A DNA stretch of 42,203 nt from Clostridia bacterium. Lineage in GTDB: Bacteria; Bacillota; Clostridia; Oscillospirales; CAG-272. The stretch covers positions 1-42,203 of the forward strand of contig JAFVZL010000035.1 in NCBI GenBank assembly GCA_017508195.1. Direction: 5' to 3'. A program made the position numbers and the translations under genes. The notes under the pieces are model-generated. The model worked only from the letters and a program-made list of their open reading frames with translations. It ran no database searches and was not told the origin of the DNA. Below, one piece after another: positions 21,536 through 30,527 of the stretch (the stretch's first letter is position 1; every line of letters starts with the position of its first letter).

Positions 21536-24157
21536 ATGAAGTGGACATCACTTAACGATCTCAGAGAGAAGTTTCTCTCGTTCTTTGAGTCTAAGGGACA
21601 TCTCAGAATGAACAGCTTTTCTCTCGTGCCGAGAGGAGATAAATCTCTCCTTCTCATAAACTCGGGTATGGCGCCCTTAAAGAAGTTCTTTACGGGTGAG
21701 GAAAAGCCGCCGAGAACAAGAGTCTGCACCTGTCAGAAGTGTATCAGAACTCCCGACCTCGAGCGCGTAGGACACACCGCAAGACACGGTACCTACTTCG
21801 AGATGCTCGGTAACTTCTCCTTCGGAGATTATTTCAAACACGAGGCAATTCCCTACGCGTGGGAATTCCTTACCGGTACTCTCGAGATACCTGCCGATCT
21901 TCTCTGGCCATCTGTCTACGAGAAGGACGACGAGGCTTATGCTATCTGGCGCGACAAGATCGGCGTACCCGAGGAGCATATCGTAAAGCTCGGCAAGGAG
22001 GACAACTTCTGGGAGCACGGCTCGGGTCCCTGCGGTCCCTGCTCCGAGATATACTTCGACCGCGGTCCGAAGTACGGATGCGGCTCCCCCGACTGTAAGC
22101 CGGGATGCGACTGCGACAGATTCATGGAGATATGGAACAACGTATTCTCCCAGTTCAATAATGACGGAAACGGAAATTACACCGAGCTCGCTCAGAAGAA
22201 TATCGACACGGGCATGGGTCTTGAGCGTCTTGCCTGCGTTATGCAGGGCGTGGACAACCTCTTTGAGGTAGACACCGTAAGAAAGATACTCGACACCGCC
22301 TGCTCTATCGCGGGTAAGACCTACGGTGCCGATGCGAAGGACGACATATCCATCCGCGTTATCACCGACCACACGAGAAGCGCGACCTTCATGATCTCCG
22401 ACGGAGTTATCCCCTCGAACGAGGGACGCGGCTACGTTCTGCGCCGTATCATCCGCCGTGCCTGCCGCCACGCGAAGCTCCTCGGTATAGAGGAAAACTT
22501 CCTCGGCAAGCTCGTTGAGGTATGTATCGGTGAGAACCGCGGTGCATATCCCGAGGTAGAGGAAAAGCGCGAGTATATCCTCAAGGTAGTAAATCTCGAG
22601 GAGTCACGCTTCAACACCACCATTGACGCAGGTCTCGGCATCCTCGAGGGCATCATTTCGGATTGCACTGCAAAGGGTGAAAACACCATCAGCGGCAAGG
22701 ACGCATTCAAGCTCTACGATACCTTCGGCTTCCCGATCGACCTCACCCGTGAGATCGCAGAGGAGCGCGGACTTATTATTAACGAGGCTGAGTTCACCGA
22801 GCTTATGAACGAGCAGAAGCAACGCGCACGCGCGGCGCGCGGCAATATCTCGGGCTGGGCTGAGAGCGCGAGCGATGCTCTCTCGGGCATCGGTGCTACC
22901 GAGTTCGTCGGCTATACCGACGCATCATGCGAGGCAAAGCTTCTCTCCATCATCCTTGACGGTGAGAGCGTAGAGGCTATCTCCGAGGGCGAATGTTCAC
23001 TTATCTTTGATAAAACTCCCTTCTACGGTGAGGGCGGCGGCCAGGTAGGCGACAGCGGTATTATCAGCGGTAAGGCTGACGCCACCGTAACAGACACCAA
23101 GAAGGTAAACGGCGTATATATCCACGAGGCAAAAATCGAGGGCGGTGAGATGCGCGTAGGCGAGACCTATACCCTCGCTATCGACACTCTACGCCGTGCA
23201 TCCATAAAGAGAAACCATTCCTCGGCTCACCTTCTCCAGGCTGCGCTGCGCGAGGTGCTCGGCACCCACGTTGAGCAGGCGGGCTCCTACGTAGACGAGT
23301 CGAGAGTACGCTTCGACTTCACTCACCTTGCGGCATTGACCAAGGATGAGATAGCTAAGGTCGAGGCAATCGTAAACGCAAACATTCTTAAGGCAGAGGC
23401 GGCATCGACCGTCGAATGTGATATAGAGACCGCACGCGGTATGGGTGCGATGGCACTGTTCGGCGAGAAGTACGGAGATATCGTAAGAGTCGTTAAGATA
23501 GGCTCGTCCTCCACCGAGCTTTGCGGCGGTACCCACGTATCTAATACGGGTGAGATCGGTCTGTTCAAGATCATCTCCGAGTCCTCCGTTGCCGCAGGCG
23601 TCAGAAGAATCGAGGGAACGACAGGTCTCGGTGTCCTCAATCTTCTCGGTGAGCGCGAGGAGCTTATCGCAGAGTGTGCAAGGGAGCTTAAATCTCCCAA
23701 CCCGAACGCAATCGCTAAGCGCGCAGGCGCAATGACGGGCGAGATCAAGGAGCTGCGCCGCGAGATAGAGAGCCTCAACTCCCGTATCTCCGAGATGCAG
23801 TCTGAGAAGCTTCTCGGCAATATCACCGAGGTAGGAGCATACAAGCTCCTCACCGCCAAGCTCGAGATGCGCCCCGATGCGGCACGCACCCTTACGGACA
23901 CCTTTAAGTCCAAGTACCCCGATGGCGTTATCGTTATCGCGGCAGTATCCGACGGCAAATTCAATTTTGTTGCCGCAGCAGGCGCTGAGGCAGTCAAGGC
24001 AGGCGCGCACGCAGGTAAGATCATCTCAGAGGTTTCGACTATCTGCGGCGGTAAGGGCGGCGGACGCCCCGACAGCGCGATGAGCGGCGGCAAGGACGCA
24101 TCGAAGATCGACGAGGCACTCCTTAAGGTCAAGGAGCTTCTTAGCGCGTTATCCTGA
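21536..24157 (+). CDS. alaS: Alanyl-tRNA synthetase
   Basis: Charges tRNA-Ala. The 873-residue protein has the class II catalytic core (LREKFLSFFESKGH, SLVPRGDKSLLLINSGMAPLK, RHGTYFEMLGNFSFGDYFK, WNNVFSQFN, DTGMGLERL), the tRNA-binding middle, the editing domain with HSSAHLLQAALRE and CGGTH zinc ligands, and the C-terminal domain ending GGKGGGRPDSAMSGGKD. The ATG at 21536 has GGAGG at 21524-21528. The stop codon lies in the loop of an 11-bp hairpin that opens a repeat array. Confidence 0.96.
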   Translation: MKWTSLNDLREKFLSFFESKGHLRMNSFSLVPRGDKSLLLINSGMAPLKKFFTGEEKPPRTRVCTCQKCIRTPDLERVGHTARHGTYFEMLGNFSFGDYFKHEAIPYAWEFLTGTLEIPADLLWPSVYEKDDEAYAIWRDKIGVPEEHIVKLGKEDNFWEHGSGPCGPCSEIYFDRGPKYGCGSPDCKPGCDCDRFMEIWNNVFSQFNNDGNGNYTELAQKNIDTGMGLERLACVMQGVDNLFEVDTVRKILDTACSIAGKTYGADAKDDISIRVITDHTRSATFMISDGVIPSNEGRGYVLRRIIRRACRHAKLLGIEENFLGKLVEVCIGENRGAYPEVEEKREYILKVVNLEESRFNTTIDAGLGILEGIISDCTAKGENTISGKDAFKLYDTFGFPIDLTREIAEERGLIINEAEFTELMNEQKQRARAARGNISGWAESASDALSGIGATEFVGYTDASCEAKLLSIILDGESVEAISEGECSLIFDKTPFYGEGGGQVGDSGIISGKADATVTDTKKVNGVYIHEAKIEGGEMRVGETYTLAIDTLRRASIKRNHSSAHLLQAALREVLGTHVEQAGSYVDESRVRFDFTHLAALTKDEIAKVEAIVNANILKAEAASTVECDIETARGMGAMALFGEKYGDIVRVVKIGSSSTELCGGTHVSNTGEIGLFKIISESSVAAGVRRIEGTTGLGVLNLLGEREELIAECARELKSPNPNAIAKRAGAMTGEIKELRREIESLNSRISEMQSEKLLGNITEVGAYKLLTAKLEMRPDAARTLTDTFKSKYPDGVIVIAAVSDGKFNFVAAAGAEAVKAGAHAGKIISEVSTICGGKGGGRPDSAMSGGKDASKIDEALLKVKELLSALS

Positions 24158-27690: not shown

Positions 27691-29088
27691 ATGGACGATA
27701 TAAAGAGCATAAGCGATGCCGTGATGCCCGTTATTGAGCAAAGGATCGGTGCCGCTCCCGCTATATTCAATCTGTGGTTCGGAGAGGTCGAGCTCATCTC
27801 CCTCTCGGATACCGAAGCGGTATTCGTTGCGCCCACGGAGCTGAAGAAGAAGATACTTATCACCAAATACATACATCAGATGGGTAACGCCCTCGAGGAC
27901 GTCATCGGCTTCACGGTCGAGGTAAAGATAGTCTCAAGGGATGAGCTCGAGGAGGTCGAGGAATTCATTGAGGATGACGATGACGAGGATGACATTCCGG
28001 TGCCCGACCCCACCGAGGAGGACGACGGCAAGGAGGAGATAATCTCCGAGTTCATCTCGGGAGCATCCGACAAGCCCTCTATGCTTGATAACTACACCTT
28101 CGATAACTTTGTCGTCGGCTCGTCGAACACCTTTGCGAAGGCGGCGTGCATGGCGGTAGCAAAGGAGCCCACTGTATATAACCCTCTGTTCATCTACGGT
28201 AACTCGGGTCTCGGTAAGACCCACCTGCTTTATGCTATCATCAACTACATGAAGCACAATCACCCGAACCTGAAGATAGTCTATAAGAAATGTGAGACCT
28301 TCCTTGCAGAGCTTATCGAGGCACTGCAGGCGGGATTTGTCGCTCCGTTCAAGGAGAAGTACCGTCGCTGCGACGTTCTTCTGATAGACGATATACAGTT
28401 CTTAGCGGGTAAGGAAATGACCCAAGAGGAGTTCTTCCATACCTTCTCGGCTCTCTACGAGTCGGATAAGCAGATCATTCTTACCTCAGACCGTCCGCCG
28501 AAGGATATCAAGCCCTTAAGCGACAGGCTGAAGTCGAGATTCGAGGGCGGTCTGCTCGCAGACGTTCAACCCCCGAACTTTGAATTACGTATCGCCATCA
28601 TCAGAAAGAAGGCAGACGATATCGGCCTCACTATCTCGAACGAGATGGTAGAATACATGGCTGAGCGTCTGCAGAACAACATAAGACAGATCGAGGGCGC
28701 GCTTAAGCGTCTGTACGCTGTATGCTCCTTCACTGCGACCTCGGTCACAAAGGATAAGGTCGACGAGGTCATCTCCATTATCGACCCCGGCAATATCCCT
28801 GCCGACGCGATGATAGAGAGGATACTCGGCAGCGTAAGCAAGCACTACGGAGTCGATATCGAGAGCATGAAGTCGAAGAAAAAGACCGACTCCATCGCGA
28901 AGGCAAGGCACGTAGCTATCTACCTCATCAGAAATATGACCAGCCTTACCCTGAAGGAGATAGGCGGGATATTCGACAGAAACCACGCAACCGTTATGGC
29001 ATCCATCGACTATGTCGAACTGAATATGAGGACCGTGAACGGTTACGAGAGAGAGATCAAGCAGCTTAAGAAGGAGATCAAGGGCTGA
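27691..29088 (+). CDS. dnaA: Chromosomal replication initiator DnaA
   Basis: Opens the origin. The 465-residue protein has domain I (about 1-85), an acidic linker (about 84-116, with DDDDEDD), the AAA+ domain III (Walker A GNSGLGKT at 170-177, Walker B LLIDDI at 230-235, DRLKSRF near 278-284) and DNA-binding domain IV (about 370-465). In domain IV the usual (G)GRDHTTV loop reads DRNHATV. By alignment from memory, E. coli D433 is Asn431 and T435 is Ala433, while H434 (His432) and R399 (Arg406) are kept. The adjacent origin carries matching non-canonical boxes. The ATG at 27691 follows AAGGAAAGGAAG. rpmH and rnpA, often upstream, are absent. Confidence 0.96.
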   Translation: MDDIKSISDAVMPVIEQRIGAAPAIFNLWFGEVELISLSDTEAVFVAPTELKKKILITKYIHQMGNALEDVIGFTVEVKIVSRDELEEVEEFIEDDDDEDDIPVPDPTEEDDGKEEIISEFISGASDKPSMLDNYTFDNFVVGSSNTFAKAACMAVAKEPTVYNPLFIYGNSGLGKTHLLYAIINYMKHNHPNLKIVYKKCETFLAELIEALQAGFVAPFKEKYRRCDVLLIDDIQFLAGKEMTQEEFFHTFSALYESDKQIILTSDRPPKDIKPLSDRLKSRFEGGLLADVQPPNFELRIAIIRKKADDIGLTISNEMVEYMAERLQNNIRQIEGALKRLYAVCSFTATSVTKDKVDEVISIIDPGNIPADAMIERILGSVSKHYGVDIESMKSKKKTDSIAKARHVAIYLIRNMTSLTLKEIGGIFDRNHATVMASIDYVELNMRTVNGYEREIKQLKKEIKG

Positions 29089-29375
29089 CGCCTTTGAGTT
29101 TTCAACATTTTCCTGTTGAAAACCGTGTTTAAAAGCTGTTGAAAACTGGTATTGCAAGCTGTAGAAAATCCTGTTGAAAACAATCAACACCGACTCAAAA
29201 GCACCAAACAGAAAAAATGTTGAAAACTTGTCCCGATTTTCCCTTATAAATCAAGGGTTTGCCGACTTTTCAACACAATCAACAGCATTAATACAACAAC
29301 AACTAACTTAATTAATAATACAAACAATCTATCATACGATACCCACCTCGGAGTGGGAGACGAAAAGGAGTTAAT
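29089..29375. other. oriC: Replication origin (oriC), dnaA-dnaN gap
   Basis: The gap holds seven copies of a 9-mer. TTTTCAACA is at 29099-29107 and 29267-29275. TGTTGAAAA is at 29114, 29137, 29172 and 29218, and TGTAGAAAA at 29160. Start-to-start steps of the same-strand boxes are 23, 23, 12 and 46, close to multiples of one helical turn. CAATCAACA (29181, 29276) may be weak sites. An AT-rich stretch at about 29285-29340 is the likely unwinding region. No canonical TTATCCACA occurs. Position next to dnaA and dnaN supports the call. Confidence 0.85.
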
Positions 29376-30527
29376 ATGAAGTTTACGGTATCAAGAGCCG
29401 CACTCGTTGCGAAGCTTGCTCCCGCAATGGGATCGGTTTCAAATAAAAATACTATCACCGCCATCGAGGGTGTGCTTATCGAGACTCTTGAAAATGGAAA
29501 AATACAGATATCTACCTATGATATGAATAAGGGATACAGAGCAACCATCGACCCCGTATCCATCGAGCGAGAGGGCAGCTACATAATCAATGCGCAAAGA
29601 CTTTATCAGACCGTGCGCGTGCTCTCCGACGATGAGATCACCTTCGATATAAACGACAGGCTCAACTGCGAGATTACCTCGGGTAAGTCATCGTTCTCGA
29701 TGTTCGCACTTAAGGGTGAGGAGTTCCCGAATCTTCCCGAGCTTACCACCGAGCGCGGCTTCACCGTATCCTCTGAGATTCTTAAGAATATGATAGGAAA
29801 GGTTGCACACTCAATTGCCGAGCAGGACACGAGGCCTATGCTCTGCGGTGCATTCTTCAAGATAAAGAGCGACGGGCTCGAGGTAGTATCCTGCGACTCC
29901 TACACGCTCTCCAAATCCACGATGAACTGCGCTATATCATCTCTCGCTATTGACGGAGAGCTTAATTACTCCTTCATCATCCCCGGCCACGCACTCGGTG
30001 AGCTCTCGAAGATGCTCTCTGACGGTAAGGAGGATACTGTAAAGTTCTACCTTTCGAGAAAGCACGCTATCATCAAGAAGGAGGACGTCACCTTCTTCAC
30101 AAGAACGATAGACAGCGAGTACATCGACTACAACAGAATTATCCCTAAGGATAACGATATTATAGTAACGGTTGACAGAGAGAGATTCCTCTCGGGTCTT
30201 GAGAGAGCTAATATCATCGCCGAGGAGAAGATCCAGGGCGCGGGCAGAAGCTACGTCAAGATCGCAGTCGACCATCACTACCTCAATCTCACCTCGACCT
30301 CGGTCAACGGCGGAGTATCCGACGAGATGGACTGCGTGCACGAGGGCGGCAATATCGTCATCGGCTTCAACTGCCGTTACCTCATCAACAGCGTAAGGGT
30401 TGCCGAGGGTGAGAACATCAAGATAACCCTCAAGGGTCCGAACCAGGCTATCACCATCGAGCCAGCAGAGGCAGACGAGAATTTCTCCTACTTCTACATG
30501 ATCCTTCCCGTAAGGATGAACGAGTGA
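29376..30527 (+). CDS. dnaN: DNA polymerase III beta clamp
   Basis: Ring-shaped processivity factor of the replicative polymerase. The 383-residue protein has three similar domains. It begins MKFTVSRAALVAKLAPAMGSV and has FALKGEEFPNLPEL, RPMLCGAFF, SCDSYTLS and the C-terminal block YFYMILPVRM. AAAAGGAG precedes the ATG, and a small CCCAC/GTGGG hairpin lies just upstream (29342-29357). recF begins 12 bases after the stop. Confidence 0.95.
   Translation: MKFTVSRAALVAKLAPAMGSVSNKNTITAIEGVLIETLENGKIQISTYDMNKGYRATIDPVSIEREGSYIINAQRLYQTVRVLSDDEITFDINDRLNCEITSGKSSFSMFALKGEEFPNLPELTTERGFTVSSEILKNMIGKVAHSIAEQDTRPMLCGAFFKIKSDGLEVVSCDSYTLSKSTMNCAISSLAIDGELNYSFIIPGHALGELSKMLSDGKEDTVKFYLSRKHAIIKKEDVTFFTRTIDSEYIDYNRIIPKDNDIIVTVDRERFLSGLERANIIAEEKIQGAGRSYVKIAVDHHYLNLTSTSVNGGVSDEMDCVHEGGNIVIGFNCRYLINSVRVAEGENIKITLKGPNQAITIEPAEADENFSYFYMILPVRMNE

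Follow-up and report, generated by a model that had tools for sequence, protein, structure and literature searches.

DnaA boxes and the residues that read them

It is common to regard the DnaA box as nearly universal and to take the residues that recognise it as invariant. Going by the title of a 1997 paper, Thr435 reportedly confers sequence-specific binding. In the parts of the literature consulted, TTWTNCACA is quoted as the DnaA-box consensus and residues 433-434 are described as highly conserved. A passage of PMC5742627 places a helix starting at residue 434 in the major groove over TnCACA and describes the T435M variant as defective in box binding. Base-specific contacts given in a passage of the review PMC6727663, turned to the orientation used here, include positions 6 and 7 and not position 5, while an excerpt of PMC8235120 assigns D433 and L438 to box position 7.

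The canonical origins of E. coli, B. subtilis and C. difficile share with the locus described here the order of dnaA and dnaN, a cluster of boxes in the gap between them and a DnaA with ATPase and helix-turn-helix domains. Relative to the canonical TTWTNCACA, the exact boxes of this locus have A rather than C at position 6, and its DnaA has Asn and Ala at residues 433 and 435. According to a passage of PMC3322544, the DnaA-box consensus of several Mollicutes is TT(A/T)TC(C/A)ACA, which the exact box of the present locus, TTTTCAACA, fits; the word is thus not new, although the comparison covers the box word alone and the present host is a Clostridia-type bacterium. In Epsilonproteobacteria, a lineage-specific box change is likewise discussed in connection with changed residues at the helix start (432, 435, 438 and 439) in the part of PMC5043019 consulted, but their box (core TTCAC) has T fixed at position 5 and keeps C at position 6, whereas the present boxes have A at position 6 and, for the most part, C at position 5. 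Divergent base-contact residues in Borrelia DnaA led the authors of PMC9879097 to suggest an altered box; in the passage seen no box was established, while in the present work residues and boxes were compared over many genomes. The basal unwinding system of B. subtilis, as outlined in an excerpt of PMC10721633, has a tandem box pair by an A+T-rich tract next to dnaN, as does the present locus, except that here the second tandem box is degenerate and no clear DnaA-trio run was found. No study relating residues 433 and 435 to box letters across genomes was found in the literature searched, which mostly did not extend to subscription papers.

The dnaA-dnaN gap and its putative boxes

The stretch analysed (42,203 nucleotides; hereafter the window) corresponds to contig C23 of a draft genome that totals 2.0 Mb in 54 contigs. 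The best described of its named relatives are gut-sample assemblies of Clostridia and Oscillospiraceae, with farther matches including Gemmatimonadota. Its genes run in the order SpoVAD, dnaA, gap, dnaN, RecF-like gene, gyrB and gyrA, which is the usual neighbourhood of a chromosomal origin. Both initiator domains of DnaA were identified, the AAA+ ATPase (PF00308, E 7.7e-65) and the C-terminal helix-turn-helix (PF08299, E 1.1e-21), the latter having its single match in the 2.0 Mb genome in this dnaA. By its layout, the gap is probably an ordinary chromosomal origin of a Clostridia-type bacterium, placed between dnaA and dnaN, with a slightly changed putative box (Table 1).

Table 1. Positions of genes, codons and putative origin elements in the window
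Feature	Position	Strand	Remark
dnaA, 465 aa	27691..29088	+	Pfam Bac_DnaA and Bac_DnaA_C
AAC codon, DnaA residue 431 (E. coli 433), Asp to Asn	28981..28983	+	
GCA codon, DnaA residue 433 (E. coli 435), Thr to Ala	28987..28989	+	
dnaA-dnaN gap, putative oriC	29089..29375	.	Densest TTTTCAACA group among the 53 genome copies listed
Putative DnaA box TTTTCAACA	29099..29107	+	
Putative DnaA box TTTTCAACA	29114..29122	-	
One-mismatch box TTTTAAACA	29126..29134	-	Overlooked by the earlier note
Putative DnaA box TTTTCAACA	29137..29145	-	
One-mismatch box TTTTCTACA	29160..29168	-	
Putative DnaA box TTTTCAACA	29172..29180	-	
Putative DnaA box TTTTCAACA	29218..29226	-	
Putative DnaA box TTTTCAACA, adjoining the A+T-rich tract	29267..29275	+	Position kept in alignment with three relatives
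Degenerate box CAATCAACA, abutting the 29267 box (tandem pair)	29276..29284	+	CAATCGACA in sister L026
A+T-rich tract, 72-82% A+T (40-base windows), candidate unwinding element	29289..29348	.	Inferred from layout
dnaN	29376..30527	+	Pfam DNA_pol3_beta domains

A rescan of the 287-base gap returned the six exact copies of TTTTCAACA and the absence of TTATCCACA that had been described in the earlier note, which had also counted one site with a single mismatch where two exist (TTTTAAACA at 29126 and TTTTCTACA at 29160, both on the minus strand). Eight copies of TTTTCAACA lie in the whole window, compared to a mean of 0.32 and a maximum of 2 in 100 dinucleotide shuffles of it. No exact TTATCCACA, TTTTCCACA or TTATCAACA and no TTWTCCACA were found anywhere in the window; the canonical TTATNCACA and TTWTNCACA call for C at position 6, which the exact boxes lack. 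The same-strand spacing of 23, 23, 12 and 46 bases, noted before as close to multiples of 11.5, is correct; with the extra site included it becomes 12, 11, 23, 12 and 46 bases (1.04, 0.96, 2.0, 1.04 and 4.0 multiples of 11.5).

The tandem pair at 29267-29284 was found to be kept in four aligned gaps. In L026, the sister of the window, the counterpart of the 29267 box is TTTTCGACA, and both boxes of the pair have CG and not CA at positions 5-6 (L026:1680-2030), as if they had changed in concert. In a check for DnaA-trios, the longest succession of TAN triplets had three members, and no clear run was found.

A GC-skew switch had been expected at 29.1 kb; on this 42 kb contig of a draft genome there is no sharp switch at that point, the minimum of the cumulative skew lying at 22748, with a shallower second minimum at 30509 from which the curve climbs. 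On this contig, a sharp skew change at the gap was accordingly rejected.

Across the genome of the window, TTTTCAACA occurs 53 times against seven for a reversed-pattern control, six of the 53 being in the gap, while TTWTCCACA occurs 28 times against 34 for its control, with no excess. The word with A at position 6 (A6), and not that with C (C6), is thus in excess in this genome, to which codon usage may contribute. A second tight group of boxes was identified on contig C10 (42697-43017; L435:2698-3018), consisting of three TTTTCAACA and two TTTTCCACA. This group is located after a radical SAM gene, its nearest box lying approximately 170 bases upstream of a gene for a UvrD/PcrA-type helicase (Pfam UvrD-helicase, E 8.8e-86), and may act as a promoter under DnaA control or as a titration site.

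Numbering follows an alignment with domain IV of E. coli DnaA, whose sequence is that of PDB 1J1V. The window's DnaA reads FDRNHATV, with N at 433 and A at 435; the reading RNHATV, with D433 changed to Asn and T435 to Ala, is therefore borne out, and the Asp433/Thr435 pair is absent from this protein. Further base-contact positions listed in papers are also changed (399 K, 423 K, 438 M and 439 A).

Residues 433 and 435 and the bases at box positions 5 and 6

DnaA was sought through its C-terminal family or a profile in relatives of the window and in its genus, family, order and class. From 418 loci examined, 339 were retained, each with a complete dnaA end, dnaN and a usable, non-duplicate gap; 55 had been dropped before counting (46 with dnaN out of reach, four with gaps below 100 bases, three running off the locus and two without a domain IV hit) and 24 duplicates were removed. 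The counts are confined to TTWTNNACA words within the dnaA-dnaN gap. The sample lies outside Mollicutes and Bacteroidota and is non-random: Asn433 genomes are enriched because a profile built from ten Asn433 domains supplied loci in four genome searches (one of them by chosen genomes), with no selection on boxes.

The ratio of A to C at position 6 (TTWTN[A]ACA against TTWTN[C]ACA, recounted over the 339 gaps) was found to be 59:3 for DnaA with Asn/Ser at 433/435 (29 genomes), 15:9 for Asn/Ala (5 genomes), 21:40 for Asn/Thr (16 genomes), 48:37 for Asp/Ala (26 genomes), 176:266 for Asp/Ser (128 genomes) and 113:317 for Asp/Thr (116 genomes). Asn433 with Ser or Ala at 435 thus gives 74 A boxes against 12 C boxes when pooled. 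A majority of A was seen in 12 of the 15 informative clades that are purely Asn/(Ser or Ala), in 14 of 103 Asp/Thr genomes and in 45 of 107 Asp/(Ser or Ala) genomes. In a set of 223 gaps, C6 boxes of Asn/Ser genomes numbered two, with 2.2 expected from shuffles, and A6 boxes 50, with 4.8 expected.

With Ser and Ala grouped, a choice made once the counts were known, a regression over 301 genomes corrected by a tree of DnaA outside domain IV and with G+C as covariate associated position 6 with both Asn433 (p 6e-4) and Ser/Ala435 (p 5e-4), jointly at p 5e-7, and each stayed significant given the other. Both main effects persisted without the largest Asn/(Ser or Ala) clade of 16 genomes (p 0.005 and 4e-4) and when only TTWTC[A/C]ACA was counted. 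The interaction of the two residues had p 0.018 overall, 0.06 without that clade and 0.13 with only TTWTC[A/C]ACA. In the last-added batch of 59 informative genomes, Asn433 had p 0.038 and Ser/Ala435 p 0.14, the interaction was absent (p 0.6) and Asn/Thr leaned to A (11:3).

The proposal in the earlier note that Asn433 reads adenine, and so accounts for the change from C to A at position 6, holds in part. Both residues are associated with that base after tree correction, but Asn433 alone predicts it poorly, and as the sole cause of A6 it was rejected on the counts of the Asn/Thr genomes. Exceptions exist on either side, with four TTTTCCACA in L188 (Asn/Ala), two TTTTCCACA in L094 (Asn/Ser), and A6 boxes with no TTWTCCACA in the Asp/Thr genomes L234 and L245. 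Asp/Thr relatives carrying the same boxes, which had been named as evidence against the proposal, do occur, at least one TTTTCAACA being found in 32 of the 116; only two of the 116, however, have at least two and no TTWTCCACA. As for the assignment of residue 433 to box position 6, it disagrees with the passage of PMC8235120 that puts D433 one position further on.

The change from A to T at position 3, which had been counted as part of the recoding, was rejected as such, since in TTWT boxes of 63 gaps of the genus T is ordinary (192 T against 41 A) and both bases fall within the published TTWTNCACA. Position 3 was used as a control. Residues 433 and 435 were not among the eight residue tests printed for it, and the two-residue model was still nominally associated (joint p 0.011), more weakly than at position 6, which warns that some general drift is mixed in.

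Such drift could in principle be the whole story: DnaA specificity would have stayed constant with C or A tolerated at position 6, the boxes would follow base composition and origin turnover, and the association with residues would be phylogenetic noise. This fits the nominal signal at position 3, the mixture of A6 and C6 boxes in many Asp433 genomes and the Mollicute consensus in PMC3322544, which in the passage available admits either base. It fits also the tests that did not reach significance. Sign tests on independent pairs over a tree of 278 gaps agreed in direction with the association, giving 3.4 pairs in the same and 0.6 in the opposite direction of 9 for Asn versus Asp (median p 0.25) and 7.5 and 2.3 of 26 for Ser/Ala versus Thr (median p 0.18). 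An agnostic scan of position 6 ranked 435T, 433N and 433D, in that order, ahead of all other tests of domain IV residues (580 in total), without family-wise significance (p 0.30 for 435T and 0.36 for 433N); values this high turn up in 30-65% of simulated scans, so that support at position 6 depends on the earlier note having singled out 433 and 435 before the analysis. On the other hand, tree and G+C are already in the regression, the residues ranked first were those named before the analysis, C6 boxes are down to shuffle level only in Asn/Ser genomes, and an effect at position 5 survives family-wise correction. Drift under constant specificity is for these reasons considered unlikely.

That effect at position 5, a contrast selected post hoc from the counts, is the statistically firmest result. 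The share of boxes with G is 36 of 1006 for Asp433, 32 of 165 for Asn433, 7 of 45 for His433, 3 of 11 for Lys433 and 2 of 4 for Ser433. In a scan of G against C, 433D came first of 577 tests (LR 28.1, reached by 0 of 2000 simulated scans), loss of Asp433 going with G at a family-wise p under 0.001, and 433N came second (family-wise p 0.008). The effect persists without the Asn433 genomes, in 17 other non-Asp genomes (p 0.002).

A real association might also be caused by other residues of domain IV, with 433 and 435 merely travelling along. Positions 399, 423, 438 and 439 and the basic loop differ in the window, and the top 15 of the position-6 scan include 438M together with markers of clades at 439, 443 and 453; these were, however, outranked by 433 and 435 at position 6, and 433 stands alone at position 5, which makes this explanation quite improbable. 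The locus is probably an ordinary origin whose box has changed by drift at its sixth base, C giving way to A, and in which residues 433 and 435 set the bases tolerated at positions 5 and 6.

Probable order of changes within the genus and a possible recognition code

DnaA was matched in 66 of the 69 genomes of the genus. Asp433 accompanies 54 of the 63 gaps, Asn433 eight and Arg433 one, and the recognition helix is therefore variable inside a single genus; as 433 and 435 both vary there, the Asp433/Thr435 pair is not a defining feature of the DnaA family. The word TTTTCAACA is present in 24 of the 54 Asp433 gaps and four of the eight Asn433 gaps, and so is by itself no marker of Asn433.

On a quick maximum likelihood tree of the genus (66 rows), the window and L026 form a clade with support of 100, nested in a clade of nine rows with support of 98, all nine having Ser or Ala at 435. 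The five Asp433 members of this larger clade all have A6 boxes, four of them as TTTTCAACA (three copies in L022, four in L024, one in L025 and three in L109) and L029 as TTATCAACA; L025 and L109 additionally carry C6 boxes. No C6 box was found in the four Asn433 members, which form two separate pairs and of which L107 has one TTTTTGACA.

These distributions bear on the earlier claim that DnaA and its origin changed recognition code together, with DnaA gaining an adenine-reading Asn433 as C6 became A6. The window and its sister do combine Asn433 with the lack of a C6 box, and in the full data set Asn433 and A6 go together (p 6e-4). A6 boxes are, however, already present in Asp433 members of the nine-row clade, and boxes with Asn433 and Thr435 are mixed; a change of box and residue in one step was consequently rejected, and a simultaneous switch is held to be very improbable. 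Since the Asp433 members already have A6, it probably preceded Asn433. The simplest order, likely though short of certain given the weakly supported forks inside the nine-row clade, is that A6 came first with Ser or Ala at 435 and that Asn433 came later and twice.

Other variants were seen in the wider sample. L115 and L117, of the window's genus, have a recognition helix reading C-R/N-H-S-N and a gap without any TTWTNNACA word. Two species of genus g154, L208 and L298, have Lys433 (Lys/Ser at 433/435 in L208) and four and three copies of TTTTCTACA, respectively, in the dnaA-dnaN gap. His433 was identified in 13 gaps from several families of the order (L353, L369, L370, L372, L374, L375, L391, L392, L417, L418, L419, L421 and L424), with repeated TTTTGCACA/TTATGCACA in L391 and L392. 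Gemmatimonadota gaps (L058-L080) have a DnaA with Asp433/Ser435 and almost no TTWTNNACA, indicating that their origin boxes are elsewhere or different.

For an ordinary origin with drifted boxes, the mechanism proposed is that residues 433 and 435, lying where the DnaA recognition helix begins, would govern the bases tolerated at box positions 5 and 6. Thr435 would pair with C6, while Ser or Ala at 435 would permit A6; Asp433 would go with the lack of G at position 5 and, jointly with 435, with C6, and its replacement by Asn, His, Lys or Ser would admit purines. If contact is direct, a carboxylate at 433 near base pairs 5-6 would serve as acceptor for a hydrogen bond donated by cytosine and be repelled by the acceptor groups of guanine, and an amide there could face a purine, this being chemistry applied to the association. 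In the window's lineage, Ser/Ala435 and A6 boxes would have come first and Asn433 later, after which C6 boxes would have gone.

A stronger version, put forward tentatively and with less confidence, is that bacterial DnaA has a readable code of amino acid to base at positions 5 and 6, that this code has undergone repeated revision within Clostridia, and that in it Asp433 would select cytosine and exclude G, Asn433 with Ser/Ala435 would select a purine at position 6, and Lys433 would select T at position 6.

The window probably holds an ordinary origin with a shifted box, and the interest lies in the comparative series of its relatives. Related bacteria that vary in both box and residues are natural material for finding which residue reads which base. 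They bear on why pairs of DnaA and origin are not interchangeable between species, on whether origin-finding programs that assume C6 miss origins, and on the question of how change in an essential protein, and in the many sites that it binds, can avoid a lethal intermediate; some living relatives, with Asp433, Ser or Ala at 435 and mixed A6 and C6 boxes, represent a tolerant stage. If the code of amino acid to base were true, origins would become mutually unreadable over time, like dialects, even between members of a single genus.
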